Below, one piece after another: positions 11,898-34,760 of a stretch of 64,000 bases of DNA (positions are counted from its first letter, which is position 1; every line of letters starts with the position of its first letter). The position numbers and the translations under genes are program-made. Source of the DNA: Pseudactinotalea sp. HY158 (GTDB lineage Bacteria; Actinomycetota; Actinomycetes; Actinomycetales; Beutenbergiaceae); NCBI RefSeq assembly GCF_009660225.1, contig NZ_CP045920.1, positions 496,001-560,000 on the forward strand, read 5' to 3'. Below the pieces are notes generated by a model. The model ran no database searches. It worked only from the letters and a program-made list of their open reading frames with translations, and was not told the DNA's origin.

Positions 11898-11910
11898 TCC
11901 GATCAGCAGT

Positions 11911-11946: not shown

Positions 11947-11957
11947 GCCCGTCCGCC

Positions 11958-13041: not shown

Positions 13042-13057
13042 CCGGTACCCTGCACAG

Positions 13058-13678
13058 GTGAGCAAGCAGGATTACCCGTATCCGAAGGACGAATTCGACG
13101 TCCTCGGGCAGGAGCGCGTGCCCCACGGCGTGCACCGTGAGCCCACCCCCCGCTGGCGGGTCTGGCTGCCCTATCTCCTCGTGATCGTGCTCGTGCCGCT
13201 GCTCACCTTCGGCGCCGTCAAGTACTTCATGAGTGCGGACGACGCCCCCTCGGCCTCGCCCACGACGACCGCCGCGCCGTCCGCCGACCCGAGCGGCGAG
13301 AGCCCCGCGCCGAGCGAGCAGCCCACCGCGACCGAGGGCGGCGAGGAGCCGTCCGAGGAGCCGACCGAGGAGCCGACGACCCCGGAGCTCGACCACGGCG
13401 TGGCCGTGCTCGTGCTCAACGGGGCGGGGGTGCAGGGACTGGCCGGGCGCACGACCGACGCCCTGACCGGCCTCGGCTGGACCGCCGCGACCGCCGGCAA
13501 CTACACGAACTCCGCCCCGGCCGAGACGACGCTGTATTACCACTCGGCCGAACTCGAGCCCGAGGCGCGCGCGATCGGCGAGCAGCTCGGCATCGACAAC
13601 CTCTCCGAGAGCGCCACGGCGGCCTCCGAGGGCATCGTCATCGTGCTCCGCGCCGGCTTCTCCGCGCCGGCGGCCTGA
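13058..13678 (+). CDS. Membrane protein with LytR C-terminal domain
   Basis: A 206-residue protein starting with GTG. Cytoplasmic N-terminus of about 35 residues, one transmembrane helix (LPYLLVIVLVPLLTFGAVKYF), a Ser/Pro/Glu-rich spacer, then a LytR_C domain from about residue 120 (HGVAVLVLNGAGVQGLAGR). LytR_C is found alone or on LytR-CpsA-Psr ligases that attach polymers to peptidoglycan; here the ligase domain is absent. It probably acts outside the membrane in envelope maintenance. Likely co-transcribed with the DUF3263 gene. Confidence 0.85.
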   Translation: MSKQDYPYPKDEFDVLGQERVPHGVHREPTPRWRVWLPYLLVIVLVPLLTFGAVKYFMSADDAPSASPTTTAAPSADPSGESPAPSEQPTATEGGEEPSEEPTEEPTTPELDHGVAVLVLNGAGVQGLAGRTTDALTGLGWTAATAGNYTNSAPAETTLYYHSAELEPEARAIGEQLGIDNLSESATAASEGIVIVLRAGFSAPAA

Positions 13679-13695
13679 GCGCGTCGCCGCCCCCT

Positions 13696-15198: not shown

Positions 15199-15390
15199 GC
15201 GGCCTCAGGCGGGGACGACCTCGCTGTTCCGTCAGGGGACTTTCGCACTGTAGCCTCGGTGCCCACGCCTGCCGCCGAGCCGTGGTCACCGACCGTGGCG
15301 TCATGGCTCGACCAATACCCCCACGAGTCGGCGACATCGAGGCTAGCCTGAAGCGGCATGGGCAGTAGATCTGCTACCTATCAACGATGA

Positions 15391-15397
15391 GAGGAAG
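15391..15397 (+). promoter_or_regulatory. Ribosome binding site upstream of the small secreted peptide gene
   Basis: GAGGAAG lies 7 nt before an ATG at 15405. That ATG starts a frame that stops at 15482 but sits one base out of phase with the signal-peptide-encoding frame that follows, which points to a frameshift inside the first 20 codons. Confidence 0.5.
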
Positions 15398-15481
15398 TAT
15401 CGCCATGTACGACACCCTCGGTGACAGGGCCGGAGCCACCCTCCTCAGCGGCTGCGTGCGGTCCTGGCAGCCGTCGTCCTG

Positions 15482-15796
15482 ATGCTGACGCTGGGCGTTA
15501 CTCTGAATGCTCCGAGCGCAGCGGCCTTCGGTACCTGGAATGCTACGCGAAGTTGTGGCGTCAACGAGGTCCACAGTGGACGGGTCGGCGGAGTGTCTCA
15601 GGCGACGACGCGCCGCGTGAGTGGATCGTGTGCGGGGCCACTCATGGCCGGTCTGCGTCACCGCTCTGGTCTTGGGTTGCCGACAAGTATCCAGTGGAGC
15701 ACGGGCGACTCGAGCTACGTCTCTCGTATCATGACCGACACAACGACGTCCGGGTACCACAAGGGCTGCCCCACGTGCAATACCACGACGACGTGA
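15482..15796 (+). CDS. Small secreted Cys-containing peptide, 5' end apparently frameshifted
   Basis: Not recognised with confidence. From the first in-frame ATG it is 104 residues, but the same frame is open upstream to 15425 and reads QRLRAVLAAVVLMLTLGV, a good signal-peptide start with no ATG, GTG or TTG before it. A start with a good ribosome site at 15405 is in the neighbouring frame; loss of one base near the C-rich run at 15434-15446 would explain this. Predicted cleavage follows APSAAA, giving a mature peptide of about 89 residues beginning FGTWN with four Cys. The stop overlaps the next gene by 4 bp (GTGA), strong support that the frame is real. FGTWN loosely recalls lactococcin-972-type bacteriocins, but their SNY/H core is missing. 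Confidence 0.5.
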   Translation: MLTLGVTLNAPSAAAFGTWNATRSCGVNEVHSGRVGGVSQATTRRVSGSCAGPLMAGLRHRSGLGLPTSIQWSTGDSSYVSRIMTDTTTSGYHKGCPTCNTTTT

Positions 15797-16383
15797 AGCG
15801 ATGCGCGTGTGTCGGCCTGGCCATTGCCGCGATCGGGCTGCTCCTCGGCTGCTCCTCCGTTCAAGGGGGACAAGTGGCCGAGGAGCGCTTCGACGCGCTC
15901 CTCGCTGAGGCCGAAGCGAGCGGTGCGGGTGAGGCGCAGTTGGCGGCGATGAGCGATGGTGCCGTCACGACAGCCGAGTACGAGGATGCTCTCGACCGCT
16001 ACTTTCAGTGCACGGCTCTTCATGGAATTGAGCACAGCGATCCTGTTCTCAATCCGGTCAATAATCTCATTTACACGTTCACTGAGACGTCATGGGTCTA
16101 CGGGGATGAAGAATTAGCTGAACTGACGTTGGATTGCAGAGTTCGGGAACTCGTGTACCTGGAGTTGGGGTATCGGTACAGCGAGCCGGCATCGATGGAT
16201 GAGGCGCTGCTCGATGGTGCGCGAGAGTGCCTGCAAAAGTCCGGGTGGGAGTTCACGGGCGATGAGCGGAATTTCGATGATCTGGTCGCAGTTGGAGGCG
16301 AAGGCTCCCAGGACGGGGTTACGGACTGCCTGGTTCCCGTCTGGCTCAAGTTCTATCCAGGGGAGTCGCTCTCCGTTCCGTGA
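15793..16383 (+). CDS. Lipoprotein linked to secreted peptide/ABC exporter island
   Basis: A 196-residue lipoprotein. GTG start inside a 4-bp overlap with the upstream peptide gene; signal sequence VKRCACVGLAIAAIGLLLGC with lipobox LLLGC. The mature part is acidic and helical at first (EERFDALLAEAEASGAGE) with Cys in FQCTALHG, LDCRVREL, ARECLQ and TDCLVP. No known domain is recognised. Base composition is clearly lower in GC than the flanking genes (some lines near 50%), a sign of transfer. Position between the secreted peptide and an export-type ABC system makes an immunity or export-accessory role conceivable; this is inference only. Confidence 0.7.
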   Translation: MKRCACVGLAIAAIGLLLGCSSVQGGQVAEERFDALLAEAEASGAGEAQLAAMSDGAVTTAEYEDALDRYFQCTALHGIEHSDPVLNPVNNLIYTFTETSWVYGDEELAELTLDCRVRELVYLELGYRYSEPASMDEALLDGARECLQKSGWEFTGDERNFDDLVAVGGEGSQDGVTDCLVPVWLKFYPGESLSVP

Positions 16384-16535
16384 GTCGGGGCAAGTCCGTG
16401 TGCGACAACAGTTCGAAGCTACCGGCACCCGGTCGCGCGGGCCCAGCCGGACAGTTGACGGCCCATCCATGTGGTGCCATCGGCCGGTATGGTCAGGGGA
16501 TATTGACGGCCTGACGGCGGGAGGTTGACCAGTCG

Positions 16536-17621
16536 ATGGAGAAGTCGGATTCTCGAGTCGGTCGGACCGTCTTTCTGGCTGCCTTGGTGGTGTGGCTGCT
16601 GGCCCCGGTCGTGTTGATCGCGGTGGTGCAGGCACATCAACAACGGGTGGTGCTTGTACAGACACCGGAGGTGTTGGCGCCGGTGACGGCGAGCGTTGAG
16701 TCCGCCGGCGCGGTCGAGATCGCGATCGACTGGGGCAGGCAGGTGCGCCTGATCGCTCCCGGCTGGTCCGGGACGGTGGAGCAGGTACACGTCGAGCCCG
16801 GCGACCGGATCGAGGATGGGTCGCCTGTGATCACGATCGATGGAATCGAGCGGCGGGCGGCATTGACTCCGCGTCCGTTCACCCGTCCGCTGTCGATCGG
16901 CGATCGTGGCGCGGATGTCCGGATGCTGCATGAATGGCTGGCCGAGTCCGGGTACCCGGGTGCTGAGGGAGAGGTGTTCACTGCCGGGACGATGGAGCGT
17001 GTCCGGGCGCTGGCCGCCGACATCGGTGCGAAGCGGCCGGCGGCCTTCGACTGGACGTGGTTGGTCTATCTGCCGGAGGAGTTCACTGTCGGGTCGGTGG
17101 AGGCGCTGGTCGCTGCGCCGGCGCCCGCTGCTGGTGAGGCGGTCGTGCTCGGTGCCGCTGCAATCAAGGACACCCTGATCGTGGAGCCGGGCAGCGTGCC
17201 TGAGCGTCAGGCGGGCGAGGAGAATGTGGCGCAGACCGCCTTTGAACAGATCCCGGCCGATGCGGTGGTCACGGTGCCTGTGGGGGCCGAACTGCGCGTG
17301 CGGGACGAGCCGGTCGTGGTCGGCGAGGACGGTCGGCGACTCGAGAATCCGGATGTGCTGGAGCGGGTCCCCTCGGGCGCGGCGTCGGTGCCCGCTGTTT
17401 TGGTATACAGAGATGACGAGGCACTCATGCTGCCCTCGGCGGCGGTCTGGGTCGGCGCAGGGGCCGACACATGCGTGTTGCGGGTCGAAGGTGACGAGCG
17501 GGTGACGGTCTCGGTTACTGTCGCTTCGGGAGCCAATGGGCAGGCACTGGTGACGGGAGATCTGAGCGTTGGAGATCGGGTGGTGCTGGCGCCGCCTGCC
17601 GCAGCGAGGGGGTCCTGTTGA
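16536..17621 (+). CDS. Membrane-anchored efflux adaptor with peptidoglycan-binding domain
   Basis: A 361-residue protein with one N-terminal membrane segment (VFLAALVVWLLAPVVLIAVV), then a biotinyl-lipoyl-like hairpin region (APGWSGTVEQVHVEPGDRIEDGSPV), a PG_binding_1-like segment at about 118-170 (LSIGDRGADVRMLHEWLAESGYPG), and a MacA/HlyD-like C-terminal beta region ending VTGDLSVGDRVVL. This is the domain order of periplasmic-adaptor-like proteins paired with MacB-type ABC transporters in Gram-positive bacteria. Its stop overlaps the TTG start of the ATPase gene, so the adaptor, ATPase and permease form one translational unit. Confidence 0.82.
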   Translation: MEKSDSRVGRTVFLAALVVWLLAPVVLIAVVQAHQQRVVLVQTPEVLAPVTASVESAGAVEIAIDWGRQVRLIAPGWSGTVEQVHVEPGDRIEDGSPVITIDGIERRAALTPRPFTRPLSIGDRGADVRMLHEWLAESGYPGAEGEVFTAGTMERVRALAADIGAKRPAAFDWTWLVYLPEEFTVGSVEALVAAPAPAAGEAVVLGAAAIKDTLIVEPGSVPERQAGEENVAQTAFEQIPADAVVTVPVGAELRVRDEPVVVGEDGRRLENPDVLERVPSGAASVPAVLVYRDDEALMLPSAAVWVGAGADTCVLRVEGDERVTVSVTVASGANGQALVTGDLSVGDRVVLAPPAAARGSC

Positions 17622-18232
17622 GCAGTGCGCTGGTGCGGCTGAGGCAGGTGACCAAGTCCTTCGGTAGCCGTCAGGTGCTGACCGGCCTCGATCTGGAGAT
17701 CCGGCCGGCCCACTCGGTCGCCTTGCTGGGGCCTTCCGGGGCAGGCAAGTCGACGCTGCTATCGATCATCGCCGGTCTCTTGGCTCCTGATGGTGGCTCG
17801 ATCGAGAGAGCGCCCGGGGTGGAGACGGTCTGGATCGTTCAGAATGCACCGATGTTGAACCGGCGCTCGGCGTTGGAGAACATCATGGTCGGCGCCTTGT
17901 CCTTGGGCGCGGCGGAGGGGGTGGCGCGGTCCAAGGCGAGGGAGGCAATGCAGCGGCTCGGCCTGTCCGACCTGGCTCGCACGCGTGGGCACCGACTCTC
18001 CGGCGGTGAACGGCAGCGGGTGGCGGTCGCGCGTGGCCTGCTCGCCGGGGCGAATCTCTTGCTGGTGGATGAACCGACGGCCTCGCTCGACGCCGACTCC
18101 AGAGAACTGGTGCTGCGGGCTATCCATGGGGCCGTGGCGGCCTCGTGTGCCGCTGTAGTGGCTACACACGATGACGAGGTGGCCCGCTCCTGCGATGAAC
18201 AGATCCGGCTCAGGGATGGACGAGTGACGTGA
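17618..18232 (+). CDS. ABC transporter ATP-binding protein (MacB/LolD type)
   Basis: A 204-residue ATPase with Walker A GPSGAGKSTLL (about residues 38-48), signature LSGGERQRVAVAR and Walker B LLLVDEPTASLD. The size and sequence fit the stand-alone ATPases of the LolD/MacB/FtsE group that power extrusion of peptides or lipoproteins rather than import. The start is an unusual TTG overlapping the previous stop (TTGA); a GTG at 17633 is an alternative. The stop overlaps the permease start (GTGA). Confidence 0.92.
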   Translation: MSSALVRLRQVTKSFGSRQVLTGLDLEIRPAHSVALLGPSGAGKSTLLSIIAGLLAPDGGSIERAPGVETVWIVQNAPMLNRRSALENIMVGALSLGAAEGVARSKAREAMQRLGLSDLARTRGHRLSGGERQRVAVARGLLAGANLLLVDEPTASLDADSRELVLRAIHGAVAASCAAVVATHDDEVARSCDEQIRLRDGRVT

Positions 18233-19317
18233 GCCGTGACGGCGCCCGCGGCGCACGGTGGCGTACTCGCCAGGTCGTCCGCGAGGCCGTGTGGGACCTG
18301 TGCGCGGCACGAGTCCAGAGCGGCATCGTGGCTACGACCGCCTTGGTGACCGCAGCGGTCATGGTCTTCGTCGCCGCTCTCACTCTGGCCGGCATCGCCG
18401 CACGTGAGGATGTCGCCTACTGGAACGGCCGGGACGTGCTGGAGGTGGTGTTCAATGAGGGGCGTTGGGATGTGGCTCGGTGCGAGCAGTTGAACGCGGT
18501 GACCGGAGTCGCCTCGGCCGGGGCGGTGCTGGATGGTCGAAACATCATGATCGGCACCGAACCGGCGAGTCGGTATTCGATCGAACGAGTGACGCCTGGA
18601 TACCTGCACGTCGTGTTCCCGGACCTGGAGTTTCACGGGGAACCAGGCCTAGTCGCCGGGCCCCTCGTGGCCGAGCGCTTCGGGCTCGTCCGTGGCGGTG
18701 ATATCGCCGTACGCGAGGCCACTGGCCTTCCTCGGGTGCTCCCGGTCAGCGCCGTGGCTCATCCGTCGGCGCGTGCCGACGGGCAGGCACGCCGTCTGTT
18801 CGAGGTGATGCCTGCTACCGGGGTGGCCGCCGGCTGCCTGGTGTCCCCCGAACACGGGGCTACGGCACAAGTGCAGGCATTGCTCACGGATTGGTGGCCC
18901 GCACCGGCACGGGCCATCACGTTCCCAGTCGAGGACACCGGCTCTGGCCGAACCCCGCAGCAAGAGCTCGGCTCCTCCTGGGCACACCTCGGTTGGCTTG
19001 CCACAGTGCCCGTGCTCGCGATCTTCCTGGTGCTCGCGTGGTCGAGGCGTTCTGAGATCGCCCTCTATCGGTTGCACCGGCTCACCCGCGCCCAGGCTCT
19101 CCTCATGCACGCCGTCACGGTCCTGTTCGTAGTGTTGCTGCCGTGGCAGGCAGGCACCGCGGTGGGGCTTGCGGCCTTCATCCTGGCGGACGGGGGCACT
19201 CTGCTCACCCCCGTATTGATACCTGTGCTGGCGCAGTCGCTCATCATGTTGGCCCTCGGCCCGCCATTGGCCTGGCTGCTCACCGCTCGCACCCTGGCCG
19301 CGATCCGCGGCGCCTGA
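18229..19317 (+). CDS. ABC transporter permease, FtsX/MacB-like
   Basis: A 362-residue membrane protein with the MacB/FtsX topology: one helix near residues 34-60 (GIVATTALVTAAVMVFVAAL), a large extracytoplasmic domain (about 60-250), then three helices (about 252-272, 288-312 and 318-350) near the C-terminus. GTG start within the overlap with the ATPase gene. Together with the adaptor and ATPase it would form a tripartite-like mechanotransmission exporter. The neighbouring secreted peptide and lipoprotein are the obvious candidate cargo or protection partners, but nothing in the sequence proves this. Confidence 0.85.
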   Translation: MSRDGARGARWRTRQVVREAVWDLCAARVQSGIVATTALVTAAVMVFVAALTLAGIAAREDVAYWNGRDVLEVVFNEGRWDVARCEQLNAVTGVASAGAVLDGRNIMIGTEPASRYSIERVTPGYLHVVFPDLEFHGEPGLVAGPLVAERFGLVRGGDIAVREATGLPRVLPVSAVAHPSARADGQARRLFEVMPATGVAAGCLVSPEHGATAQVQALLTDWWPAPARAITFPVEDTGSGRTPQQELGSSWAHLGWLATVPVLAIFLVLAWSRRSEIALYRLHRLTRAQALLMHAVTVLFVVLLPWQAGTAVGLAAFILADGGTLLTPVLIPVLAQSLIMLALGPPLAWLLTARTLAAIRGA

Positions 19318-22903: not shown

Positions 22904-23635
22904 GTGCCAACACGGGTCTGTGACAGCGCCGGAGGGAGTCGTCCGACAGTGACAGTCGACAAGGACGTGCGGTCGCGGACGACCGGGGAGGCCGACGCCG
23001 TCGAGCAGCCGATTCCACACAAGGTCTACCGTGCCGTGCGGGAATCGATTATTCGGGGAGAGTACCCTCCGCATCTTCGGCTGAGCGAGGAGAATCTGGC
23101 GAAAGAACTTGGAGTCTCCCGGGTGCCTCTGCGCGAGGGCTTTCGAATGTTGTCACGAGACGGGTTTATCCATCAGCGCCCACACCGCAGCGCGGTGGTG
23201 AGGGAATGGACCCCGGACCAGGTGTCGGAGCTCTACGACGTAAGATTGGTCTTCGAGGTCAAGGCGGCAGGGTTGGCGGCCCAACGGGTGGCCGGCGGGG
23301 GAGACCCGCGGCCACTGTGGGAGACGCTCGACTCGATTCGTGACGGGCAGGCTCCGCTCGATCCGCTCACGGCGGCCGAGCTGAGTACTCGGTTCCACCG
23401 AACGATGGTGGAGTTGACGGAGAACCCGCTCCTCATATCGATCGTCGAACCACTGTTCCCGCAGATGGTCTGGCACTCCTATCTCACCCGCAACCACCAA
23501 CCGGGCGTTTCGCACCGAGAGCACGCAACTATCGCAGAGGCCATTACCGCGGGAGACCCGGCGTTGGCGGAGGCCACCACCTATGTTCACATCAGGCGCG
23601 GACGAGAGATGAGCCTGAAGGCGGCCGAGCACTGA
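22904..23635 (+). CDS. GntR family transcriptional regulator (FCD subfamily)
   Basis: A 243-residue regulator: winged HTH at about 37-105 (IIRGEYPPHLRLSEENLAKELGVSRVPLREGFRML) and an FCD ligand-binding domain (about 110-235) with metal-binding-type residues FHRTMVELTENP and HREHATIAEAI. GTG start with GAGG 5 nt upstream; GTG at 22949 would be shorter. It is transcribed toward the PuuE-like/ABC importer cluster and probably regulates it in response to an organic acid or ureide-type metabolite (inference). Lower GC than the groEL side. Confidence 0.9.
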   Translation: MPTRVCDSAGGSRPTVTVDKDVRSRTTGEADAVEQPIPHKVYRAVRESIIRGEYPPHLRLSEENLAKELGVSRVPLREGFRMLSRDGFIHQRPHRSAVVREWTPDQVSELYDVRLVFEVKAAGLAAQRVAGGGDPRPLWETLDSIRDGQAPLDPLTAAELSTRFHRTMVELTENPLLISIVEPLFPQMVWHSYLTRNHQPGVSHREHATIAEAITAGDPALAEATTYVHIRRGREMSLKAAEH

Positions 23636-23880: not shown

Positions 23881-23928
23881 TCACCCAATGAGGGGTTTTG
23901 AGTGACCTCAAGGGCGATCTAGTAGCAC

Positions 23929-23934
23929 AGGAGG
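23929..23934 (+). promoter_or_regulatory. Ribosome binding site that selects a TTG start
   Basis: AGGAGG lies 8 nt before a TTG at 23943 in the PuuE-like frame. The earlier TTG at 23898 has no such site, so the downstream TTG is the better start. Confidence 0.65.
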
Positions 23935-23942
23935 TAGGTCCC

Positions 23943-24896
23943 TTGGATCTGGACTGGACATCGAACGCGGGCGAGCGAATGCGCGACTTCCGCGGCTATG
24001 GTCCGAACCCGCCCGAGTTCCGGTGGCCCGACGGGGCTCGCCTGGCGATCAACTTCGCGGTGAATTTCGAGGAGGGAACCGAGCGAAATCCCCTCGTCGG
24101 GGATGCTCACCGTGACTCGCGAGGCTGGCTCAAGAGTTCGTTGCCGCCGGGTGAAAGAGACCTAATGCAGGAGTCCGAGTACGAGTACGGTACGCGTACG
24201 GGAATCTGGCGGCTCGTGCGCATGTTCGAGAAGTACGAGGTGCCCTTCAGTGTCTTCGTCTCATCTCAGGCGCTCCCGGTGAGCCCGGAGCTGACCGACT
24301 ACCTCGCACAGGCAGATTGCGACTTCGTCTCCCACGGCGTGCGCTCGATCTCCGCACCGCGCGCCTCGGAAGCGGAGCAGCGTAGGAGCATCCGAGACTC
24401 CGTTGACGAGGTCTACCGGCTCACGGGCAAGAGGATCCTCGGGGCCTTCCCGCGGCCCCCGATCCGTGAGGAGGCGCGGCGCATCATGGCTGAGGAAGGC
24501 CTCCTCTACGACTCGGCCACCACCAACGACGATGTGCCCTACTATGCCGACGTGGCCGGCCGCCCGATGCTCGTGGTTCCCTACGCCATCGATACGAATG
24601 ATGCGCGCTTCTGGGGTGGGCAGACCGGCCCGGGCTTCACGGGTAGCTCCGACTTCTTCGACTATCTTCGTTCCGCGTTCGACATCTTGTATGACGAAGC
24701 GGATACGAGTGCGCGAATGATGTCCGTCGGCTTGCACGCGCGAATTATGCGCCCGGGTCGTGTCGCGTCCCTGCGACGCTTCCTGGAATACGTTCGGCAA
24801 TTCCCCGAAGTTGCCATCATGAAGCGAAACGACATCGCGACTTCCTTCGCTGAGAAGTTCGCACCCGAGAACGCCTGGAACTGGCCTTCACATTGA
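23943..24896 (+). CDS. Polysaccharide deacetylase family protein, PuuE (allantoinase)-like
   Basis: About 317 residues. The N-terminal region MRDFRGYGPNPPEFRWPDGARLA is the signature of the PuuE-like branch of the carbohydrate esterase 4 fold (known members hydrolyse allantoin or related cyclic ureides, others N-acetyl groups). NFAVNFEEGTERN and FVSHGVRS match that branch; the canonical deacetylase metal triad is replaced, as is usual for it. No signal peptide, so cytoplasmic. TTG start chosen by the upstream AGGAGG. It leads an operon with an ABC importer, suggesting it acts on the imported compound. True substrate unknown. Confidence 0.8.
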   Translation: MDLDWTSNAGERMRDFRGYGPNPPEFRWPDGARLAINFAVNFEEGTERNPLVGDAHRDSRGWLKSSLPPGERDLMQESEYEYGTRTGIWRLVRMFEKYEVPFSVFVSSQALPVSPELTDYLAQADCDFVSHGVRSISAPRASEAEQRRSIRDSVDEVYRLTGKRILGAFPRPPIREEARRIMAEEGLLYDSATTNDDVPYYADVAGRPMLVVPYAIDTNDARFWGGQTGPGFTGSSDFFDYLRSAFDILYDEADTSARMMSVGLHARIMRPGRVASLRRFLEYVRQFPEVAIMKRNDIATSFAEKFAPENAWNWPSH

Positions 24897-24924
24897 CGTG
24901 AATGCCTCATCACAAGGAGAAACC

Positions 24925-26196
24925 ATGACAAGGAAGTCAAAATTCAAGCAAAACGTGCTCGTCGGCACGATCATACTGTCGGCAACGGCTCTTGCGGCCT
25001 GCGGTAGTAGCGGCGGCGACAGTACGAACGCCGACGGGAAGCTCGAGCTCGTCGTTGCGAACTCGCAGTGGCTCGATGCGCTCCGCGGAGAGAACCTCTG
25101 GGGCGCAGTCAAGGCGTACGACGACGCACAGTCCGAGGTCGTCCTGGTTCAGCAGGCGATCCCGTCCGAGAGTATCGATACGAAGATTGCGACAGAACTC
25201 GGTGCGGGCCAAGGGCCGGATATCATGATCATTCAGGACAAGCTGTTCATGACGGTGAGGGATGCTCTCCTGCCTATCGACGACGTCGTCGCCGAGGCAG
25301 AGAACCTCAACGAGACGAACGACGCAGCAATCGTCGACGGCGAGTATCGCGGTGTGGCCTGGCAACGCGCTGCTTATGCCTTGATCTACAACGAACTCCT
25401 GCTCGAGGAGGCTGGGGTCGAGCCGCCGACGAACGTCGACGAACTGATCGAGGCTGGCCAGGCGGTTCAGGAGGCGACCGGCACGATCGGATTCGCCAGC
25501 CGCCACAGCGTCAACGAGATCACCAACTGGTACTTCGACTTCCAGAACTGGCTGCAAGGCTATGGCGGCGGGATCGCCCCAGACGGGACATTCGCTATCG
25601 ACTCGCCCGAGAACGTCGCGGCCGTCGAGGCCTTCAAGCAGGTCTACGACGCGGACATCATCCCCAAGGGCGACGACTTCCCGACGCAGCGCACGCGGAT
25701 GAAGGAGGGTGGTATAGCGATGTCGATCGACAACAGCGGTGGCACGCTCAACATTGCTTCGGGCGCATCTGAGGACTTGCTGCGGATCGGCGCGGCCCCG
25801 CTCCCGTTCGACCATCCGGGCGCGCACCAGCAGTTGTTCGTCGCGATCAATAAGAACATCTCCCCCGAGAAGCAGGAGGCGGCGAAAGACTTCATCCGCT
25901 GGTTCATTGGCCCCGAGGCCCAGGACCTGATGCGATCGGTCAGCGGACCGGACCGATTGGCGACCGACGTGCCCATTCCCGACGACGTTCTGACGGAGAG
26001 CCCCTGGATGGCTGCGTTCGAGCAGGCGGCTGTCGCCTCGAACAGCACGCTGGTCTCCGGGCATGAGGGTGACACGGCCCAGGTCGCGCGAATCGTTATG
26101 GAGGCTGTTGAACAGGTACTGACCGGCGATGCGGATGCGGCCACGGTGCTCGCGGATGCGCAGCAGCAGACCGAGGCTGCGTTCGCGGACGACTGA
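24925..26196 (+). CDS. ABC transporter extracellular solute-binding protein (family 1)
   Basis: A 423-residue lipoprotein that would capture the substrate outside the membrane. Signal MTRKSKFKQNVLVGTIILSA with lipobox LAACG; mature domain with family-1 features (VVANSQWLDALRGENL, GPDIMIIQDKLF, FIRWFIGPEAQDLM). The ATG preceded by AAGGAG is preferred over one nine codons upstream. Family 1 usually binds sugars or oligosaccharides, but members also bind polyols and other solutes. It directly precedes two permeases and an ATPase. Confidence 0.92.
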   Translation: MTRKSKFKQNVLVGTIILSATALAACGSSGGDSTNADGKLELVVANSQWLDALRGENLWGAVKAYDDAQSEVVLVQQAIPSESIDTKIATELGAGQGPDIMIIQDKLFMTVRDALLPIDDVVAEAENLNETNDAAIVDGEYRGVAWQRAAYALIYNELLLEEAGVEPPTNVDELIEAGQAVQEATGTIGFASRHSVNEITNWYFDFQNWLQGYGGGIAPDGTFAIDSPENVAAVEAFKQVYDADIIPKGDDFPTQRTRMKEGGIAMSIDNSGGTLNIASGASEDLLRIGAAPLPFDHPGAHQQLFVAINKNISPEKQEAAKDFIRWFIGPEAQDLMRSVSGPDRLATDVPIPDDVLTESPWMAAFEQAAVASNSTLVSGHEGDTAQVARIVMEAVEQVLTGDADAATVLADAQQQTEAAFADD

Positions 26197-26248
26197 GCGA
26201 CCTCGAGATGCACTACGACGCAGATGTCGAAAGGAGGTTGAAGCCCTC

Positions 26249-27157
26249 ATGATCACGCACAAGCGCAGGTTCAGCAGTAGGTTCCGCACGCAGGCGATGC
26301 CCTACCTTCTCCTGCTCGTGCCGGTGCTCTACCTGAGCGTCGTCCTGTTCTGGCCTCTTGGTAAGGAGGTCTGGATGAGCTTCACGGACACGAGGCTCAT
26401 GTCGCCGAACGACGGCAACTTCATCGGGCTGGAGAACTACCGCGCCCTGCTGACGTCGGGGGAGTTGCCCTATTCGATCTGGGTGACGTTGGCCTACACG
26501 GCCGCCACGGTCGTCTGCTCGACCGCGCTGGGTGTCTGTGCCGCCCTGCTCCTCAATCGGCCCTTCGTGGGGCAGACACTTTCCCGGTCGGTCCTGCTCT
26601 TCGGGTACGCGGTTCCGAGCGTGGCGGCGGTACTGGGCTGGTACTGGATCTACAACGAACGCTCGGGAATCCTGAACAGGGTTTCCGAGGCGCTCGGGTT
26701 CGGTCCTCAAGCGTGGCTCACCTCGTCGGAGTGGGCCCTGATCTCGATCACCGTCGTCACCGTTTGGCAGGTGACGCCGCTCGTGATGCTGGTCGTGCTC
26801 GCGGCCTTGCAATCGGTGCCGGAGGAGGTGCGGGAGGCGAGTCGGATCGACGGTGCGGACCCACTCAACGTGTTCCGCAACGTCACCTTCCCGCATATCA
26901 GACCGTCGGTGGAACTCGTTGCCCTCCTAGTTATGGTGTGGACGATTCGACGATTTGAACTCGTGTACCTGTTGACTGGCGGCGGTCCGAATAACCGCAC
27001 CAGCACGATCGTCGTCAGCTTGCAGCAGATGGCGTTCGAAAACCAGTCGCTCGGCAAGGCGGCCGTATTCGGCGTGATAGGTCTCGTGCTTGCTCTTTTG
27101 CTCGCCGGTGTGGGCGTCGTGCTACGTCGCATTCTTGGAGGGAACAGACATGCGTGA
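26249..27157 (+). CDS. ABC transporter permease (MalF-like, CUT1)
   Basis: 302 residues, six predicted helices, starting MITHKRRF after a very strong AAGGAGG. The EAA loop EASRIDGADPLNVFRNVTFP (about residues 190-210) contacts the ATPase. The open frame begins further upstream but the ribosome site fixes this ATG. Its end overlaps the next permease by 8 bp, indicating coupled expression. Forms the heterodimeric channel with the next gene product. Confidence 0.93.
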   Translation: MITHKRRFSSRFRTQAMPYLLLLVPVLYLSVVLFWPLGKEVWMSFTDTRLMSPNDGNFIGLENYRALLTSGELPYSIWVTLAYTAATVVCSTALGVCAALLLNRPFVGQTLSRSVLLFGYAVPSVAAVLGWYWIYNERSGILNRVSEALGFGPQAWLTSSEWALISITVVTVWQVTPLVMLVVLAALQSVPEEVREASRIDGADPLNVFRNVTFPHIRPSVELVALLVMVWTIRRFELVYLLTGGGPNNRTSTIVVSLQQMAFENQSLGKAAVFGVIGLVLALLLAGVGVVLRRILGGNRHA

Positions 27158-27986
27158 GAGGTCGAAATCGCTGCGCCGCATCATCTTCTACGTTGTCGTC
27201 GCGGCGTTCGTGATCATCGCCGGCTTTCCGGTCTATTGGATGCTCACCACGGCATTCGGGGCGCAGTCGGACCTATATTCTGGAAACCAGACGCCGTACC
27301 CGCAGCTCGGAAACATCGGATTGCTACTTGAGAGCCTGGCGGACCTGCCATTGGCGCGCTGGATGTCGAACTCGTTCCTGATCGCCGGCGGCACAACGAT
27401 CGTGAGTCTGTGCCTGGGTACGCTCGCCGGGTACGCACTCAGCCGGTTCCGTTTCGTGGGCCGCGGTCTCGTGAGCGGGGCGATGCTCGTCACGCAGGTA
27501 TTGCCGGAAGCGCTCATCCTCATTCCCCTCTATGGAATCTTCGTCACGCTTGGGTTGCTCAACAGTCTCTGGGGTCTGGTCATCGCCAACGCGGGCTTTG
27601 CTCTGCCTGTGGCGGCGTTCATCATCATGAGCGCGGTCGACGGTGTCCCTGTCGAGCTGGAGGAGGCCGCCCGGATCGACAACTGTCCGCGATTGAGTAT
27701 CCTCACCTCGATCATCGTTCCGGTCATCAGCCCGAGCATCGCAGCAGCGGCCGTCATCACATTCTTCTCTGCGTGGAACGAGTACCTGCTCGCGGCGACC
27801 TTCCTGCTCGACCAGGAGCGCTGGCCGGCGAGTGTTGGACTGGCGTCGTTCATCGGGCAGTACGAGACGCCGCTCGCCGGTGTGATGGGCGCGGCACTGC
27901 TGTTCTGTATTCCAGCGATCGTCTTCTTCCTAATTGTTCAACGACGAATTGTCGCCGGGTTGACCACCGGCGCCGTGAAGGGATAA
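27150..27986 (+). CDS. ABC transporter permease (MalG-like, CUT1)
   Basis: 278 residues, six predicted helices, starting MRERSKSLRR inside the previous gene (TTGGAGG upstream). The EAA motif LEEAARIDNCPRLSILTSIIVP is present (about 168-190). Second half of the importer channel. Followed after 4 bp by the ATPase gene. Confidence 0.93.
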   Translation: MRERSKSLRRIIFYVVVAAFVIIAGFPVYWMLTTAFGAQSDLYSGNQTPYPQLGNIGLLLESLADLPLARWMSNSFLIAGGTTIVSLCLGTLAGYALSRFRFVGRGLVSGAMLVTQVLPEALILIPLYGIFVTLGLLNSLWGLVIANAGFALPVAAFIIMSAVDGVPVELEEAARIDNCPRLSILTSIIVPVISPSIAAAAVITFFSAWNEYLLAATFLLDQERWPASVGLASFIGQYETPLAGVMGAALLFCIPAIVFFLIVQRRIVAGLTTGAVKG

Positions 27987-27990
27987 TTTC

Positions 27991-29166
27991 ATGGCTTCCA
28001 TAGCATTTCGTGATGTCGCCAAGTCGTATGGCAGCACGCAGATCATCGACGAGTTCAGCGCAACGGTCGAGGACGGTGAGTTCCTCATCCTGCTCGGTCC
28101 CTCCGGCTGCGGCAAGTCCACCCTGCTTCGTATGATCGCCGGTCTGACGGAAATCTCGAGCGGAGAGGTGTTGTTCGGCGAGAACCGGGTCAACGACCTC
28201 GAGCCGGGTGAGCGCGGCGTCGCATTCGTGTTCCAGAGCTATGCTCTATACCCGCACATGAGCGTGATGGAGAACATCGCGTTCCCGCTTCTTATGGCCA
28301 ACTTCCGCAAGGTGTATCACGTGCCCATTCTCAATGGCATCATACGCCGGCGAATGATGCGCCGACCGGATATAGCAGCCAAGGTCGATGAGATCGGCCG
28401 CACGCTCGAGCTCACTCCGCTCATGAAGCGCAAGCCCGCCCAACTCTCCGGCGGGCAACGCCAGCGAGTTGCGCTTGCACGTGCGCTGGTGCGTGAGCCC
28501 GCGATCTATCTGCTCGATGAGCCACTGTCGAACCTCGACGCGAAGCTCCGCGGCCAGATGCGGACCGAGATCGCCGCGCTTCACCGACGCGTCCGTAAGA
28601 CCTTCGTGTACGTCACTCATGATCAGGTCGAGGCGATGACGATGGGCACCCGCCTCATCGTGATGAATGATGGGGCCATCCAGCAGATCGGCAGCCCCGA
28701 GGACGTCTACAGCGACCCTGCAAACGTCTTCACGGCGCGCTTTGTGGGCTCGCCGCCGATGAACCTCACTCCCGTCGACGTCGCCGGGGACCGCGGTACG
28801 GGCTTCGAGGACGTGTTCCCCGGTGGCCCGGGCCTTCCAGCGGGGTCGTATTACCTGGGTGTCCGTCCCGAGAACGTGCGCCTCGTACCTGCGGACCGCC
28901 CGGGAATCGGCGCCCAGATCTCGACAGTCGAGCGCCTCGGCAACGAGACCCTCGTCGGCTGCGTACTTGAGACGAGCAGCGGCGAGGGAATCACGGATGA
29001 CGTCCAGAACATCGACCAGTGGTATGTCCGTCTGCCTGGCAGTCAGCACTTCGAGATCGGGGAACGCCGTTGCCTGGATTTCGACGCCGGGGCAGCCCAT
29101 TGGTTCGACCGCGCGACGGGCGAGCGCGTGCCGCGTATTCGTCAGGCCTGCGTGGCCGGCCGGTAA
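27991..29166 (+). CDS. ABC transporter ATP-binding protein (MsmK/UgpC type)
   Basis: 391 residues. Walker A GPSGCGKSTLLRM, signature LSGGQRQRVALAR, Walker B IYLLDEPLSNLD, His-loop VYVTHDQ, and a C-terminal TOBE/MalK-like regulatory region from about 240. A short insertion between Q-loop and signature (RKVYHVPILNGIIRRRMMRRP, about residues 107-128) is longer than in standard MsmK proteins. AGGGA lies 8 nt before the ATG. Energises the two permeases; such ATPases may serve several importers. Confidence 0.93.
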   Translation: MASIAFRDVAKSYGSTQIIDEFSATVEDGEFLILLGPSGCGKSTLLRMIAGLTEISSGEVLFGENRVNDLEPGERGVAFVFQSYALYPHMSVMENIAFPLLMANFRKVYHVPILNGIIRRRMMRRPDIAAKVDEIGRTLELTPLMKRKPAQLSGGQRQRVALARALVREPAIYLLDEPLSNLDAKLRGQMRTEIAALHRRVRKTFVYVTHDQVEAMTMGTRLIVMNDGAIQQIGSPEDVYSDPANVFTARFVGSPPMNLTPVDVAGDRGTGFEDVFPGGPGLPAGSYYLGVRPENVRLVPADRPGIGAQISTVERLGNETLVGCVLETSSGEGITDDVQNIDQWYVRLPGSQHFEIGERRCLDFDAGAAHWFDRATGERVPRIRQACVAGR

Positions 29167-29192: not shown

Positions 29193-30104
29193 ATGCAGAC
29201 ATATCGAGTGAGCGCCACGGGGCACAGCCTCAACTACCTGCCCGAGTACATCGGCTCAGCGCTTGGATACTTTGCCGATGAGGGAATCCTCATCGAGAGC
29301 ACGGTTCCTTCGCCCTGGGACCGGGTCCTGGACGACCTCGAGTCCGGCACGGCCCACGCCGCCCTGGGAGGGATCTGGGTGCCCTCGATGTACCGGGGCC
29401 ACGGCCGGGAGCTGGCACCCTTCGCCCAGGCGTCCGCGCGCGCGCCGCTGGCGTTGATCGGGCGTGAGCAGGCGACCGACTTCTCGTGGGAGCGGGTCGC
29501 CGGACGACACTTCCTGGCCCCCGGGGGCAACGGTGCCAGCGTCGCCCTCTACCTGGAGATGGTGCTGGAGGAGAAGGGCCTCGATCGGTGGGACATCCGG
29601 ATGACCCAGAACCTGTCCGGCTCCATGCTCATCGACCTGTTCGTCGGTGGCATGGGTGACTACCTGATCGTCGACGAGTTGAGCGCACGCCATCTCCAGG
29701 CCACTCACGCCGACCTATGGGTGGTCGAGTCCTTCGGCCGTGACGGTGGGCGGATTCCGTGGAGCATCTACTACGGAGCCGAGTCCCGACGTGAGGAGCT
29801 GCAGCCGCTCCACCGGGCGTTCGCGAGCGGACTGGAACGGAGCCGTGTCTGGCTGAATCAGGCGCCGATCGAGGAGATTCGGCGCATCGTCGGCCTCGAG
29901 TTCGCCGGGCGTGATCCGGAGATCCTCGTGGGACTCGTCGACGACTTTCGCCAGTGGAACATGTGGGATTCGATCACGATCGACCGGCCGGGTTTCGATC
30001 GTTGGCAGGCTGGGCTCGTCACGGGCGGGCTGCTTCCAAAGGCGGTCGACTACGGCACCCTCGTGGACCGCTCACTCACCGAGGAGGGAGCTGTGCGACC
30101 TTGA
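29193..30104 (+). CDS. NMT1/THI5-like periplasmic-binding-fold protein lacking a signal peptide
   Basis: 303 residues beginning MQTYRVSATGHSLNYLPEYIG, the NMT1/THI5/SsuA-type start (LGYFADEGI, then LESGTAHAALGG). The usual secreted members have a signal peptide or lipobox; here the domain begins at residue 3 with no export signal, so it should be cytoplasmic. GGAGAGAG precedes the ATG, and no better upstream start exists. It could be an enzyme-like or sensor protein acting on the imported compound, or an SBP relying on an unusual route. It sits between the ABC ATPase and an MFS transporter in the same operon. Confidence 0.75.
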   Translation: MQTYRVSATGHSLNYLPEYIGSALGYFADEGILIESTVPSPWDRVLDDLESGTAHAALGGIWVPSMYRGHGRELAPFAQASARAPLALIGREQATDFSWERVAGRHFLAPGGNGASVALYLEMVLEEKGLDRWDIRMTQNLSGSMLIDLFVGGMGDYLIVDELSARHLQATHADLWVVESFGRDGGRIPWSIYYGAESRREELQPLHRAFASGLERSRVWLNQAPIEEIRRIVGLEFAGRDPEILVGLVDDFRQWNMWDSITIDRPGFDRWQAGLVTGGLLPKAVDYGTLVDRSLTEEGAVRP

Positions 30105-30138: not shown

Positions 30139-31377
30139 GTGGTCAGCCTGACGAGACGCGCCACCGTGGCGATCGACCGTGCGGAGCGCCCGCTGTTCGG
30201 AGCGGTGCTTCTAGGCGCGTTCTTTGGCGTGATCGGCCAGAACACCGTGGGCATGATCGGCCCGTTCCTGTCCGCCGAGTTCAGCATCGACGCGACGATC
30301 CTCGGCACCCTCAACGCATTCACATTCGCCTCGATGGCCCTCGGAAGCATCATTCTGGGGTGGGTTGCAGGCAGGGCCGGGCTGCGGCAGTCTCTGCGGT
30401 GGGGCGTCGGCTTCATCGTGGTGGGGAGCCTCATCGGCGCGGCCGGCGACGGGATGACAGCGTTCGCCCTGAGTCGTATCGTGACCGGTATCGGCCTGGG
30501 TGGCCTGAGCACCAACAGCGTGGCCACCCTCACTGCCCTCGTGTCGGCCACGGCGCGGGGCTCCGCGGTGTCGCTGCTCAACGTCGCCGCCGGTGGTCTC
30601 GGGAACGTCGCGGCGTTCCTGTTCGGCCTCGGGATCGTCGGCGTCTTCGCCGCTCCCGAGCAGGCAGGCGGCCACGGTTGGCGCGTCATCCTGATCGCGA
30701 TCGCCGTACTCGGCGTCATCGTCTGGCTGACCTATCGGGCCATTCCCGATGTGACGAAGGGGGCCGCTCCGGCAGGCGCGCCAGCGCAGGCTTCGGCGGA
30801 CTCCGGTGCGCTCCGCCCGCCGCTCGTGCGCGCCGCTGCCTCGTACTTCGTTACGGCCGGTTGCACGCTCACAGTGCTCACCTTCCTGCCGACACTGCTG
30901 GCATCATCGGGGGGAGTGTCCTCCAGTGAGTCGTTGCTGCTCGCAGCGATCGTCCAGGTTGGCGGCCTGGTGGGTGCCTGTTTCAGCCTGCTCTTCGCGG
31001 CCAACGGCGGCGTCAAGCGCTACGTCATCGGCGCCGGTACGCTGTGTGTAGGTGTGTGTCTGGCCATCGTGCTCCAAGGCCACCACATCGCCGTGCTGAT
31101 GACTAGCGCCCTGCTGTTCCAGCTTGCCGGTGTGTTTGCGGTAACGCTCTACTGGCGCTGGTTCCCGATGCTGTTCTCGAGTAGTGAGCGCCCGCGGGGA
31201 ATGGGCATCATCATCGGCTCGGGATCGCTGGGCGCCGTTGGATTGACGTGGGCGGGAGGAGTGCTGCTCGACCGTGGCGGACCGGCCCTGCTGTTCGGTG
31301 GCATAGGTTGCGCCTATCTGATCCTTCTTGTCTGTGTGTCGTTCGTCCCCGAGCGACCGAGCTTCGATCGGCATTAG
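30139..31377 (+). CDS. MFS transporter
   Basis: 412 residues, 12 predicted membrane helices in two halves joined by a cytoplasmic loop (TKGAAPAGAPAQASADSG). The motif GWVAGRAGLRQSLRWG between helices 2 and 3 is the MFS signature, and VTGIGLGGLSTNSVATLTAL fits the aromatic-acid/metabolite:H+ symporter branch. GTG start. Last gene of the cluster; may import a related substrate or export a product. GC is lower than in the flanking mog/moa region. Confidence 0.88.
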   Translation: MVSLTRRATVAIDRAERPLFGAVLLGAFFGVIGQNTVGMIGPFLSAEFSIDATILGTLNAFTFASMALGSIILGWVAGRAGLRQSLRWGVGFIVVGSLIGAAGDGMTAFALSRIVTGIGLGGLSTNSVATLTALVSATARGSAVSLLNVAAGGLGNVAAFLFGLGIVGVFAAPEQAGGHGWRVILIAIAVLGVIVWLTYRAIPDVTKGAAPAGAPAQASADSGALRPPLVRAAASYFVTAGCTLTVLTFLPTLLASSGGVSSSESLLLAAIVQVGGLVGACFSLLFAANGGVKRYVIGAGTLCVGVCLAIVLQGHHIAVLMTSALLFQLAGVFAVTLYWRWFPMLFSSSERPRGMGIIIGSGSLGAVGLTWAGGVLLDRGGPALLFGGIGCAYLILLVCVSFVPERPSFDRH

Positions 31378-31415: not shown

Positions 31416-32351
31416 TCAGTCGGCGCCGAGGGTGGCGCGTTCGCGGCGCAGGTTCTCCGTGGCGCGCTGCGTCCAGTGCTCTCGCGCCCAATCGGTCCGA
31501 AACAGCGGATCGGCCCCGAGGAGGTGATCGAGCACGGCCGCGCGGCCGGCGCGCCACGCCTGTTCCCCGACGTGGGCGTAGTCGGCCCGGACGGCGGCGA
31601 CATAGCGCGCATAGCCGGCGGCGGGCTCGGCGAGCACCCCGAGGTCCGCGTCGATCAGTAGGGCGGCGTCGCCCCGCAGCTCCGCCTCGAGGCCGGCGGG
31701 GATCCTGTGGTCCGTCGTGCACAGCACGAGGTCGGCGACCTGCCGGGCGAGCCGTCCGGCCGGCACATTCTCGGCGAGCATTTGCCGGGCCAGCTCTGCC
31801 GAGCGGGCCTCGTCCTGGCCGGGGACGCCGTCGTACACGGCATCGTGGAACCAGGCGGCCAGGCGCACCCGCCGGCTCGGCGCAGGGGCGCGCTCTCCGG
31901 CCGCCTGCAGTCCCGGGGTGCCGCGCCGGGTGAGATCGTCGAGCCGGCGCAGCACCGCGAGCAGGTGCGCCGGGCCGTGGTAGTGCCGGTGTTCCTCGTT
32001 CCAGCGGCCGAGCAGGTGCTCGCCGAGGTCGGGCCGGTCCGTCCACAGGTCGAGCCAGCGTCGTTCGAGCGCCGGGAGCGCGCCGCCGGCCCGGGCATGA
32101 GCCGGTACGCGCAGCCCGCTGGCACGCAGCGCGCGGATCAGCTCGCGCCCGTCGACCGCCCGTGCGCCGAGCTCGATGAGCTCACGGTAGCGGGCCGAGG
32201 GAACGTCGTAGTGATCCTCGTCGAACGCCCGTCCCGGCACCCCGGCCCGCCGCGCGAACTCGTGCAGCTCGGTCAGCGAGGAATCCGAGACCAGGTGCGA
32301 GAACGATGTGCCGTGCGCCGGCCACATGGGTGGGTCGATGAGGATCGCCAT
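31416..32351 (-). CDS. DUF4031 - HD-domain fusion protein (predicted phosphohydrolase)
   Basis: 311 residues starting MAILIDPPMWPAHGTSFSHL, the DUF4031 signature (residues 1-85); 39 low-complexity codons upstream are rejected. The second part (about 100-305) is a predicted metal-dependent HD phosphohydrolase: EHRHYHGPAHLL, WFHDAVYDG with the HD pair, TTDHRIP and DADLGVLA. All metal-ligand positions look intact. Members of this HD group often act on nucleotides; the substrate here is unknown. The nearby degenerate HD protein at 33303-34637 is a useful contrast. Confidence 0.85.
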   Translation of the reverse strand: MAILIDPPMWPAHGTSFSHLVSDSSLTELHEFARRAGVPGRAFDEDHYDVPSARYRELIELGARAVDGRELIRALRASGLRVPAHARAGGALPALERRWLDLWTDRPDLGEHLLGRWNEEHRHYHGPAHLLAVLRRLDDLTRRGTPGLQAAGERAPAPSRRVRLAAWFHDAVYDGVPGQDEARSAELARQMLAENVPAGRLARQVADLVLCTTDHRIPAGLEAELRGDAALLIDADLGVLAEPAAGYARYVAAVRADYAHVGEQAWRAGRAAVLDHLLGADPLFRTDWAREHWTQRATENLRRERATLGAD

Positions 32352-32406
32352 GGGCCTCACAGTACGGCGCGTTCTGCCCGGCCACTGCGCCGCGATGGAC
32401 GATCCG

Positions 32407-32490
32407 CACGGGTCGGCACGGGTGGGCACGGGTCGGCAAGGGCGGGCACGGGCGAGGCGGCCGGGCACAGGCGGGCACAGGCGGGCGCAG
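32407..32490. repeat. Imperfect 10-bp tandem repeats (GGCACGGGTC / GGCACAGGCG)
   Basis: About eight degenerate decamers fill the gap between the DUF4031-HD gene and the WXG100 gene. No coding or hairpin function is evident. Confidence 0.6.
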
Positions 32491-33302: not shown

Positions 33303-34637
33303 TCAGTCCCGCGGAGGCCGGGTCATCGTGCTGCCCTCGTCGGGGGAGTCCGCGGTCGAGGGCGCCCCGCCCCGCTCGGGAGGGGCGGCCGCGTCCGCGG
33401 ATCCGGACGGCCCGCGCGCCTCGGCGGACCGCGGCAGGGCGTCGATCCGGCGCAGCTTCGGGCCGAGCGGGCGGCCCTTGGGATAGTCCTTGACCAGGGG
33501 CCGGAGCTCCTCGGTGGGGCTCGCGGGCGAGGAGACGGACCCGACCGAGCGGGTGTCCGCGCGATCGCGGGGCGTCGCCGGTGAGCCCGGCGAGCCCGGT
33601 GAACCCGGTGAACCCGGTGAGCCCGAGGGGCCCTGTGAACCGTGCGATCCCTGCGATCCCGAGGGGACCGGTGAGCCCTGCGATCCCGAGGGGCCCTGTG
33701 AACCGTGCGATCCCTGCGATCCCGAGGGGACCCGCGAGCCGGTTGAATCGGTTGAGCCCTGTGCTCCCTGCGAGCCCTGTGATCCGGGAATCCGCGGGAT
33801 CGAGCCGCTGGGCAGCGGGGCGAACGTGCCCGCGGGCCGGTCCGGGTCGCTCCGGCCGGCCCCGGGGCCGGCCCCGGCGAAGAAGGAGCGCTCCGCGTGG
33901 GCACCCATCTCCCGGGCCGGTGGCTCCGCCGTGGGCGCCGGTGCGCCGGAGAGCTTCGCGAGTTGGGCCGACACGCGGGCACGCTCGGCCGTGAGGTTCT
34001 CCCGTGCCCGCTCCTCCCACGCCTGACCCAGCGGCGACGTGAACAGCTTCGCCCGGCCGAGCAGCTTCTCGATGATCGCGATCCGGGCGCGGAAATAGTC
34101 CAGATCCGGCACCTCGGAGTACTCCTCGCGCACCTCCCTGCGGTAGGTCGCGTACTTCTGCGGCTCGACCGCGAGGCCGCCGAGATTCGCATCGCACAGC
34201 GCCATCGCGTCGAGGTCGCCGTCGGGAACGTGGTGCCGCGCGAGGGCATGGATGAGCTCGACCACCCGCGCGATGCTCTCCTCGGGCACGCCGAGCCCGG
34301 TCAGCTCCGAGCGCGCCAGCTGCGAGGAGGCGATCTCGTCGATTCCCCCGCGCCTGCTGTAGACGTGGCTGTCGTCCATCCGGAAGACCGCGCCGTGGTA
34401 CCAGGCCGCGACCCGCACGAGGTCGGGGCCGTGGGTCTCGGCGGCGAGTTCGTCCACGCGCGCGAGCACGGACACGAGCCGGCGCAGATTGTGATGCTTG
34501 CGATCCGGATCGCTCCAGCGCTCGATGAGCCGGCGGCCGGCGGCCTCGATCCGTTCGTCCTCGGCGCTCGCCCCGATGACCGCGAGACTGCGCCTCCACG
34601 CTGGTAACAACCACGCCGACGCGTTCATCGCGCCCAT
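33303..34637 (-). CDS. Degenerate HD-domain protein with collagen-like C-terminal repeats
   Basis: About 444 residues. The N-terminal 210 residues align in layout with the HD phosphohydrolase module of the 31416-32351 protein, but catalytic positions are changed: WYHGAVFRM replaces WFHDAV (Asp to Gly), and CDANLGGLA replaces the DADL element, so metal binding is doubtful. The middle is Pro/Ala-rich; about 300-385 is a Gly-Ser-Gln/Pro triplet array (GSQGSQGAQGS, GSPGSPGSPGSP); a basic tail follows (KDYPKGRPLGPKLRRID). No signal peptide, so cytoplasmic. Start MGAMNAS preferred because AGGGA lies about 11 nt upstream. Function unknown, probably non-enzymatic. Confidence 0.7.
   Translation of the reverse strand: MGAMNASAWLLPAWRRSLAVIGASAEDERIEAAGRRLIERWSDPDRKHHNLRRLVSVLARVDELAAETHGPDLVRVAAWYHGAVFRMDDSHVYSRRGGIDEIASSQLARSELTGLGVPEESIARVVELIHALARHHVPDGDLDAMALCDANLGGLAVEPQKYATYRREVREEYSEVPDLDYFRARIAIIEKLLGRAKLFTSPLGQAWEERARENLTAERARVSAQLAKLSGAPAPTAEPPAREMGAHAERSFFAGAGPGAGRSDPDRPAGTFAPLPSGSIPRIPGSQGSQGAQGSTDSTGSRVPSGSQGSHGSQGPSGSQGSPVPSGSQGSHGSQGPSGSPGSPGSPGSPGSPATPRDRADTRSVGSVSSPASPTEELRPLVKDYPKGRPLGPKLRRIDALPRSAEARGPSGSADAAAPPERGGAPSTADSPDEGSTMTRPPRD
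33577..33785. repeat. Collagen-like coding tandem repeats
   Basis: DNA repeats with 9-bp and longer nested units encode the Gly-Ser-X triplets of the degenerate HD protein. Such arrays expand and contract easily, so copy number may vary between strains. Confidence 0.75.
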
Positions 34638-34760
34638 ACCGTTCACATTCCCTGCTGGCAGACATTGGTGGAAGTCGGCGGTCGAGCCGGCTGAGGTGGT
34701 TCCAGCCACAGTCTATGGCGCCGGCACCGCCGATTCGAGGGTTCAGCGTACCCTGGGCGC

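Follow-up and report, generated by a model that had tools for sequence, protein, structure and literature searches.

The window analysed here is a stretch of 64,000 nucleotides from Pseudactinotalea sp. HY158, and the genes that surround the one under study are listed in Table 1. This gene codes for a protein that belongs to the NMT1/THI5-like Pfam family with 23.1 bits against a gathering cut-off of 20.5, while no NCBIfam model matched it at E≤1. It is a separate ORF that is not fused to an ABC ATPase. It was claimed in the earlier note that a complete importer with its own binding protein lies ahead of this gene, and this is so: the Ugp-type importer has a lipoprotein solute-binding protein (SBP), which is of another family than NMT1, two permeases, and an ATPase. 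No SsuBC-type permease or ATPase partner was found in the operon. The PuuE-like protein scores 266 bits with the TIGR03212 equivalog model, which is below the cut-off of 424.6, and it is the sole TIGR03212 match in the genome. The best match of the MFS transporter is to aromatic-acid/H+ symporters, but it is under the cut-off. Two ORFs on the minus strand, 31416-32468 and 33303-34709, are partly alike by eye, and the C-terminal end of the latter is a long GSQGS/GSPGS collagen-like repeat.

Table 1. Genes of the NMT1-like locus in the window
Product	Position	Strand	Models and other evidence
GntR/FCD transcriptional regulator	22904..23635	+	PF00392, PF07729
PuuE-like polysaccharide-deacetylase-fold hydrolase (cyclic-ureide hydrolase type)	23898..24896	+	PF01522; TIGR03212
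MalE-type solute-binding lipoprotein of importer	24898..26196	+	PF13416/PF01547; hydrophobic leader and LAAC lipobox
UgpA-like permease	26243..27157	+	PF00528
UgpE-like permease	27090..27986	+	PF00528
UgpC-like ATPase	27991..29166	+	PF00005, TOBE_2; NF008653 404.8 bits, cut-off 432
NMT1-family protein, leaderless, 303 aa	29193 (ATG)..30104 (stop)	+	PF09084
MFS transporter	30139..31377	+	PF07690; TIGR00895 65.3 bits, cut-off 418.55

The ATG at 29193 has a GGAG-type site on its 5' side. Upstream of it the frame is open for 64 codons, as far as a stop at 28998, and apart from the ATG this frame offers just CTG 29148, TTG 29100, TTG 29070, and GTG 29019 as start-like codons. The longest in-frame extension adds 58 codons, but it has no hydrophobic segment, overlaps the end of ugpC, and does not have the GC3 pattern seen in the NMT1-like gene. 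Over the first 60 residues, the hydropathy of 10-residue segments peaks at 0.69 in the longest form and at 1.05 in the ATG form, whereas the lipoprotein SBP of the importer reaches 2.49. Judged by hydropathy at all in-frame starts, the 303-residue protein has neither a signal peptide nor a lipobox at any possible start. In 11 of 18 leaderless relatives, an in-frame stop lies no more than nine codons before the aligned Met, so that a leader would not fit. A missed upstream start is ruled out by the non-hydrophobic extension together with these nearby stops, and the absence of an export signal, which had been asserted on first sight of the sequence, is borne out. Thus, an NMT1-like protein without an export signal is encoded behind a complete Ugp-type importer, and this is not due to chance because relatives with the same leaderless start follow the same importer in rhizobia. 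From the missing leader, the protein is probably cytoplasmic.

A scan of one genome per species gave 71 loci related to the NMT1-like protein. Three of these are rhizobial proteins with 42% identity that likewise start at the domain, and most of the others are from Clostridia and Bacilli, with 22-30% identity and, by eye, lipoprotein-type leaders; a few are incomplete or truncated where a contig ends. Copies from Rhizobium and Neorhizobium at 42-45% were found in 12 of 26 matching plasmid records. Among 394 genomes of the family to which the genome of locus L001 (G059) belongs, 11 matched at E≤1e-20, nine of them with copies of 38-47% identity, whereas among 396 genomes of the phylum of the window only its own genome matched at this threshold. 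Five of 58 other close genomes matched at E≤1e-3 with 24-29% identity, and five matches with 25-29% were found in phage records. Within its own lineage the window copy is patchy, and its nearest counterparts are the rhizobial copies, which may reflect horizontal transfer. In rhizobia, the same Ugp importer, 46-66% identical to that of the window, is followed by a leaderless NMT1 at 40-47%. The annotated rhizobial records (L080 and H4-H12) label these proteins 'ABC transporter substrate-binding protein', a label that conceals what is probably a cytoplasmic family.

When a profile was searched against 377 genomes of the order to which G059 belongs, 17 genomes matched at E≤1e-25, G059 itself included. 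Of the 16 other loci, 14 were judged leaderless, either because the upstream codons (up to 45) encode no hydrophobic stretch or because a stop is close by, and two (L153 and L158) have leaders. A distant second class, leaderless-II, which has the motif FSAFYxP, takes in 11 of the 14 (L155, L157, and L159-L167); two of these, L160 and L166, are near an Amidohydro_2 gene. In a tree of 44 rows, in which six of the 11 leaderless-II proteins were included, the long-branched L168 was omitted, and the near-copies L002 and L080 were dropped, 25 leaderless rows fall on one side of a branch and 19 secreted rows (15 lipoproteins and four rhizobial rows) on the other with support of 86/97. The window groups with 11 rhizobial rows with support of 100/97. 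A separate version of the tree, with one mis-sliced row (sec_L095), gave the same split with support of 96/91 for the secreted side. The tree, which is unrooted and has some long branches, allows a single loss of the leader without proving it.

The genes around the leaderless relatives were then compared. Thirteen rhizobial Ugp-type loci (L001-L003, L078-L080, L096-L101, and L104, with one of the two L099 copies taken) consist of an M24 gene, the SBP, UgpA, UgpE, UgpC, and the leaderless NMT1, and all except L099 also have a PF01177-type Asp/Glu/hydantoin racemase. In L001, the NMT1 stop overlaps the racemase start. The M24 protein of L001 matches the ectoine hydrolase model best, with 64.1 bits, far under the cut-off of 575. 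Of the 394 genomes, eight have an M24 protein with an identity of 76% or more to the one in L001, and in each of them a leaderless NMT1 is part of that cluster. At 60-62% identity, 12 M24 genes were found; one, in G240, has a leaderless NMT1 nearby, with Dpp-type genes, and the 13-14 kb retrieved for each of the other 11 contain none, and therefore an M24 route does not always need the NMT1-like protein. The L099 record (1995-18603) carries two leaderless NMT1 copies in adjacent clusters, one with M24 and Dpp-type genes and one with M24 and Ugp-type genes, and this genome thus offers a ready-made pair in which the roles of importer and enzyme can be compared.

Other leaderless loci are built differently. 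L102 has the racemase (PF01177), NMT1, and a His-type importer in this order with an isochorismatase-family hydrolase further along; L081, from Shinella, has a His-type importer, two NMT1 genes, and M24; in L154/L156, a His-type importer and an FMN-dependent dehydrogenase are followed by NMT1 and then by an AllB-like amidohydrolase; and L168 has two racemases (PF01177) and NMT1, with a racemase adjoining NMT1. In L103, a Dpp-type importer, a PuuE-like gene, an aldehyde dehydrogenase, an AllB-like gene, a reductase-like gene, GntR, NMT1, and an FAA hydrolase are present, the dehydrogenase and the reductase-like gene being assigned by eye. Its PuuE-like protein, at 303.9 bits, is below the PuuE cut-off of 424.6. 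AllB-like here means a best match to allantoinase models under their cut-off of 357.85 (357.2 bits in L154 and 348.5 bits in L103), and the L103 protein passes the dihydroorotase model TIGR00857.

Probes for the racemase, PuuE, AllB, and M24 gave matches in all 20 leaderless-I loci examined, in one of 11 leaderless-II loci (L167, PuuE-like), and in none of three secreted rhizobial loci, 20 secreted Clostridia loci, and eight loci that have a UgpC of the same subfamily but no NMT1; since the probes were derived from leaderless-I loci, most of which are orthologous operons, the counts are not independent and make a contrast and not a significance test. The Clostridia loci were picked for long flanks and the short secreted loci L092 and L095 lie outside this contrast. 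In 11 further loci that were picked by M24, the matches were to M24 only. Co-occurrence with PuuE-like genes, which the earlier note had proposed as a check, was seen in the window, in L103, and in the leaderless-II locus L167, but the other leaderless-I loci have M24, the PF01177 racemase, or an AllB-like gene in its place, and the partner genes of leaderless-I, as their domain matches indicate, make up a broader cyclic-amide theme than PuuE alone. The importer type varies across the leaderless-I loci (Ugp, Dpp, and His-type) while the NMT1-like gene and the cyclic-amide-type genes are constant.

AlphaFold, run with a 44-row alignment (A1, made up of 43 of the 71 scan loci and the window), predicts a two-lobed binding-protein fold with a pLDDT of 90.9 and a pTM of 0.90, residues 112-114 being uncertain. 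When the model was compared to the PDB, for which a Foldseek search was also run, the closest structures were 3qsl (Z 26.3, rmsd 4.5, 298 aligned), CmpA (Z 25.6), ThiY 3ix1 (Z 25.4, rmsd 4.1, 288 aligned), the thiamin-binding 4nmy (Z 25.3), SsuA (Z 25.0), Thi5 (Z 24.3), and the CmpC regulatory domain 9uak (Z 24.1, rmsd 3.4, 292 aligned). The family sequence profile finds 3qsl at E 2e-21, 4nmy at 2e-11, Thi5 at 9e-10, and NrtC 8wm7 at 5.5e-5, and a leaderless-only profile finds 3qsl at 1.1e-17, Thi5 at 1.8e-6, and 9uak at about 5.7e-4 to 5.9e-4.

In 16 core leaderless sequences, which include the window and the near-copies L002 and L080, the invariant residues include Ser12, Asn14, Tyr15, Trp42, Trp62, Arg83, Asp156, Asp161, Trp190, Ser191, Tyr193, and Tyr194, and going by the predicted fold and the alignment with Thi5 these would line the cleft between the lobes. 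No Cys, His, Lys, or Glu is invariant across the 16, and therefore there is no evident metal, PLP, or nucleophile site. Fifteen of them have His11 (Gln in L003), a residue that is also common among the secreted relatives. At eight of the 12 listed positions, another residue is universal or prevails among 40 lipoprotein relatives, where position 14 is Phe in 100%, 42 is Ala in 92%, 62 is Glu in 100%, 161 is Phe in 100%, 190 is Tyr in 100%, 191 is Thr in 100%, 193 is Phe in 72%, and 194 is Ser in 65%. These lipoproteins are of the type of ThiY and related secreted pyrimidine and thiamine binders (3ix1 and 4nmy), whose fold is alike (Z about 25), and they are 24-30% identical to the window protein, with Tyr15, Arg83, Arg91, and Trp258 in common. 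In contrast to them, the window protein is leaderless, is without an SsuBC partner, and is fixed differently at positions 14, 42, 62, 161, 190, and 191.

Based on these findings, the leaderless NMT1-like protein is probably an enzyme or a sensor that has gone unrecognised and not a part of the importer. The earlier note had named an intracellular enzyme or sensor, and for a leaderless and hence probably cytoplasmic protein this was the right pair of options. We favour a cytosolic catabolic protein, likely an enzyme or an enzyme partner, for an imported planar cyclic-ureide or hydantoin-like compound, and we hold the case for and against this to be evenly weighted. The Ugp-type importer would bring in the small planar compound, and the NMT1-like protein would act in the cytoplasm on it or on an early product of it. 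The ligand would be held between the lobes by the aromatic residues Tyr15, Trp42, Trp62, Trp190, Tyr193, and Tyr194 and would also be contacted by Ser12, Asn14, Arg83, Asp156, Asp161, and Ser191. In the window, the protein would work alongside the PuuE-like hydrolase in a short catabolic route, and in rhizobia alongside the M24 hydrolase and the Asp/Glu/hydantoin racemase. We infer the ligand class from guilt by association and from the conserved aromatic residues, and catalysis is likewise a proposal. A pathway protein, probably an enzyme, is preferred over an importer part because the steady companions are cyclic-amide hydrolases and racemases and not one importer type, and because NMT1 lies between two enzyme genes in L154/L156 and overlaps the racemase start in L001.

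More specifically, although we consider this somewhat less likely than not, the leaderless clade could be a family of enzymes, so far undescribed, that have the THI5/binding-protein fold and convert the imported compound, perhaps in the step that the remaining operon genes leave uncovered. No leaderless NMT1-like protein with a tested activity was found, and among the literature matches listed (open-licence PMC, narrow terms) there was no description of a leaderless NMT1 family with hydantoin-type genes. More distant proteins of the same fold are enzymes, namely, DszB (Z 19.3), MqnD/MqnA (MqnD Z 19.3), and 4,5-dihydroxyphthalate decarboxylase (Z 16.7) (2de3, 2czl, 6o9a, and 9jp7; Z 16-19). Cys27, the nucleophile of DszB, has no counterpart in the window protein, which has zero cysteines. 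If the protein is an enzyme, it would be new chemistry for the THI5/DszB/MqnD fold, and if the enzyme family is real, it would be a further binding-protein fold turned intracellular enzyme, here beside a still intact importer. Allantoin arises by way of purine oxidation. NMT1/THI5-like genes controlled by xanthine riboswitches have been linked to this oxidation (PMC7373994), but here no Rfam match to the xanthine (NMT1-motif) riboswitch at gathering score was found in the window and in four related loci (L001, L078, L081, and L103). Regarding the ligand, the secreted relative in L005 (Fusicatenibacter, 1226-4990), one of two viewed, is a lipoprotein encoded about 3 kb from apparent ThiC, ThiD, ThiE, and ThiM genes (by eye), which would point to another ligand and suggests that part of the secreted relatives bind thiamine-pyrimidine. 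No thiamine genes were seen by eye at the other locus viewed, L007.

Position speaks against an enzyme, because in the window, in the rhizobial Ugp operons, and in L081 the NMT1 gene is directly behind the importer ATPase, a place that could suit a regulator. The leading alternative, which we regard as possible though rather unlikely, is thus a cytosolic ligand sensor of the importer or operon, a free-standing NrtC/CmpC-type domain that would bind the imported compound in the cytosol and turn down import or the GntR/RpiR regulator. The C-terminal regulatory domains of NrtC and CmpC (8wm7 and 9uak) are cytoplasmic, of NMT1 type, and linked to ABC importers, and the profile and structure matches to both given above fit a sensor. 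According to PMC11349869, the CmpC domain is a presumed solute-binding regulatory domain with unclear function. A sensor of this kind stays alive because there is no obvious catalytic set and because several operons place the gene behind the ATPase. However, the NrtC and CmpC domains are fused to the ATPase of a nitrate or bicarbonate importer, whereas the leaderless NMT1 is a separate gene that goes with other importers and with enzyme-type partners; it accompanies cyclic-amide-type genes across three importer types; its upstream neighbour is not an ATPase in L102, L103, L154/L156, L168, and the second L099 copy; and the eight loci of the same UgpC subfamily do without it. If the protein is a sensor, it would be a free-standing version of a poorly understood control domain, and the conserved operon in culturable rhizobia makes the question of enzyme or sensor testable.

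The absence of obvious catalytic groups, together with the binding-protein fold and the many conserved aromatic residues, would also suit a cytosolic protein that carries or buffers the imported compound, or a toxic intermediate, without catalysis. This we consider improbable, there being no specific evidence for it and no precedent in this fold among the literature matches listed.

Less probable still is a true importer binding protein that is exported without a classical signal or whose start was missed. The PF09084 membership and the fold speak for it. The lack of a leader at any possible start, the upstream stops in the relatives, the lipoprotein SBP of another family that the importer already has, and the missing SsuBC-type partner all argue against it. 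In a survey, Pfam SBP models also retrieved cytosolic proteins of other function, which made up about 1% of the total (PMC9602780).

THI5 is an enzyme without a role in ABC transport and it has a cysteine-rich iron motif. The likeness to it had been thought to be in fold only, which is not correct because the family profile finds Thi5 by sequence, and the THI5/NMT1 HMP-P synthase (4esx and 4h6d) ranks with the nearest structures in the PDB. Nevertheless, we give next to no credence to a THI5-type HMP-P synthase in this bacterium, a reading that was rejected on residues and genome content: in the profile alignment Lys62 and His66, the catalytic residues of THI5 (PMC10848271), are replaced by Gly59 and Val63 in the cysteine-free window protein, the operon has no thiamine genes, and ThiC (PF01964) and ThiE (PF02581) were not found in the genome (G000, 99.33% complete) by searches that found them in 13 and 11 of 14 control genomes, respectively, so that no use for the product is evident in this genome. 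A literature search yielded nothing usable on a bacterial THI5. This organism may need thiamine or import it.

By eye, UgpC of the window and of the rhizobia has an additional segment after the 'ENIAFPL' stretch. In five genomes searched for it, two copies were found in G059, none in G299, and one each in G000, G444, and G240. A docking site for NMT1 in this segment was considered and rejected because UgpC of rhizobia and other proteobacteria has it in operons without NMT1. A probe with the segment matched 34 plasmid records, of which 12 are the NMT1-bearing records H1-H12; eight of the other 22 were opened, none of these has an NMT1 gene beside the importer, and most of them adjoin sugar, sugar-acid, or phosphodiester genes.
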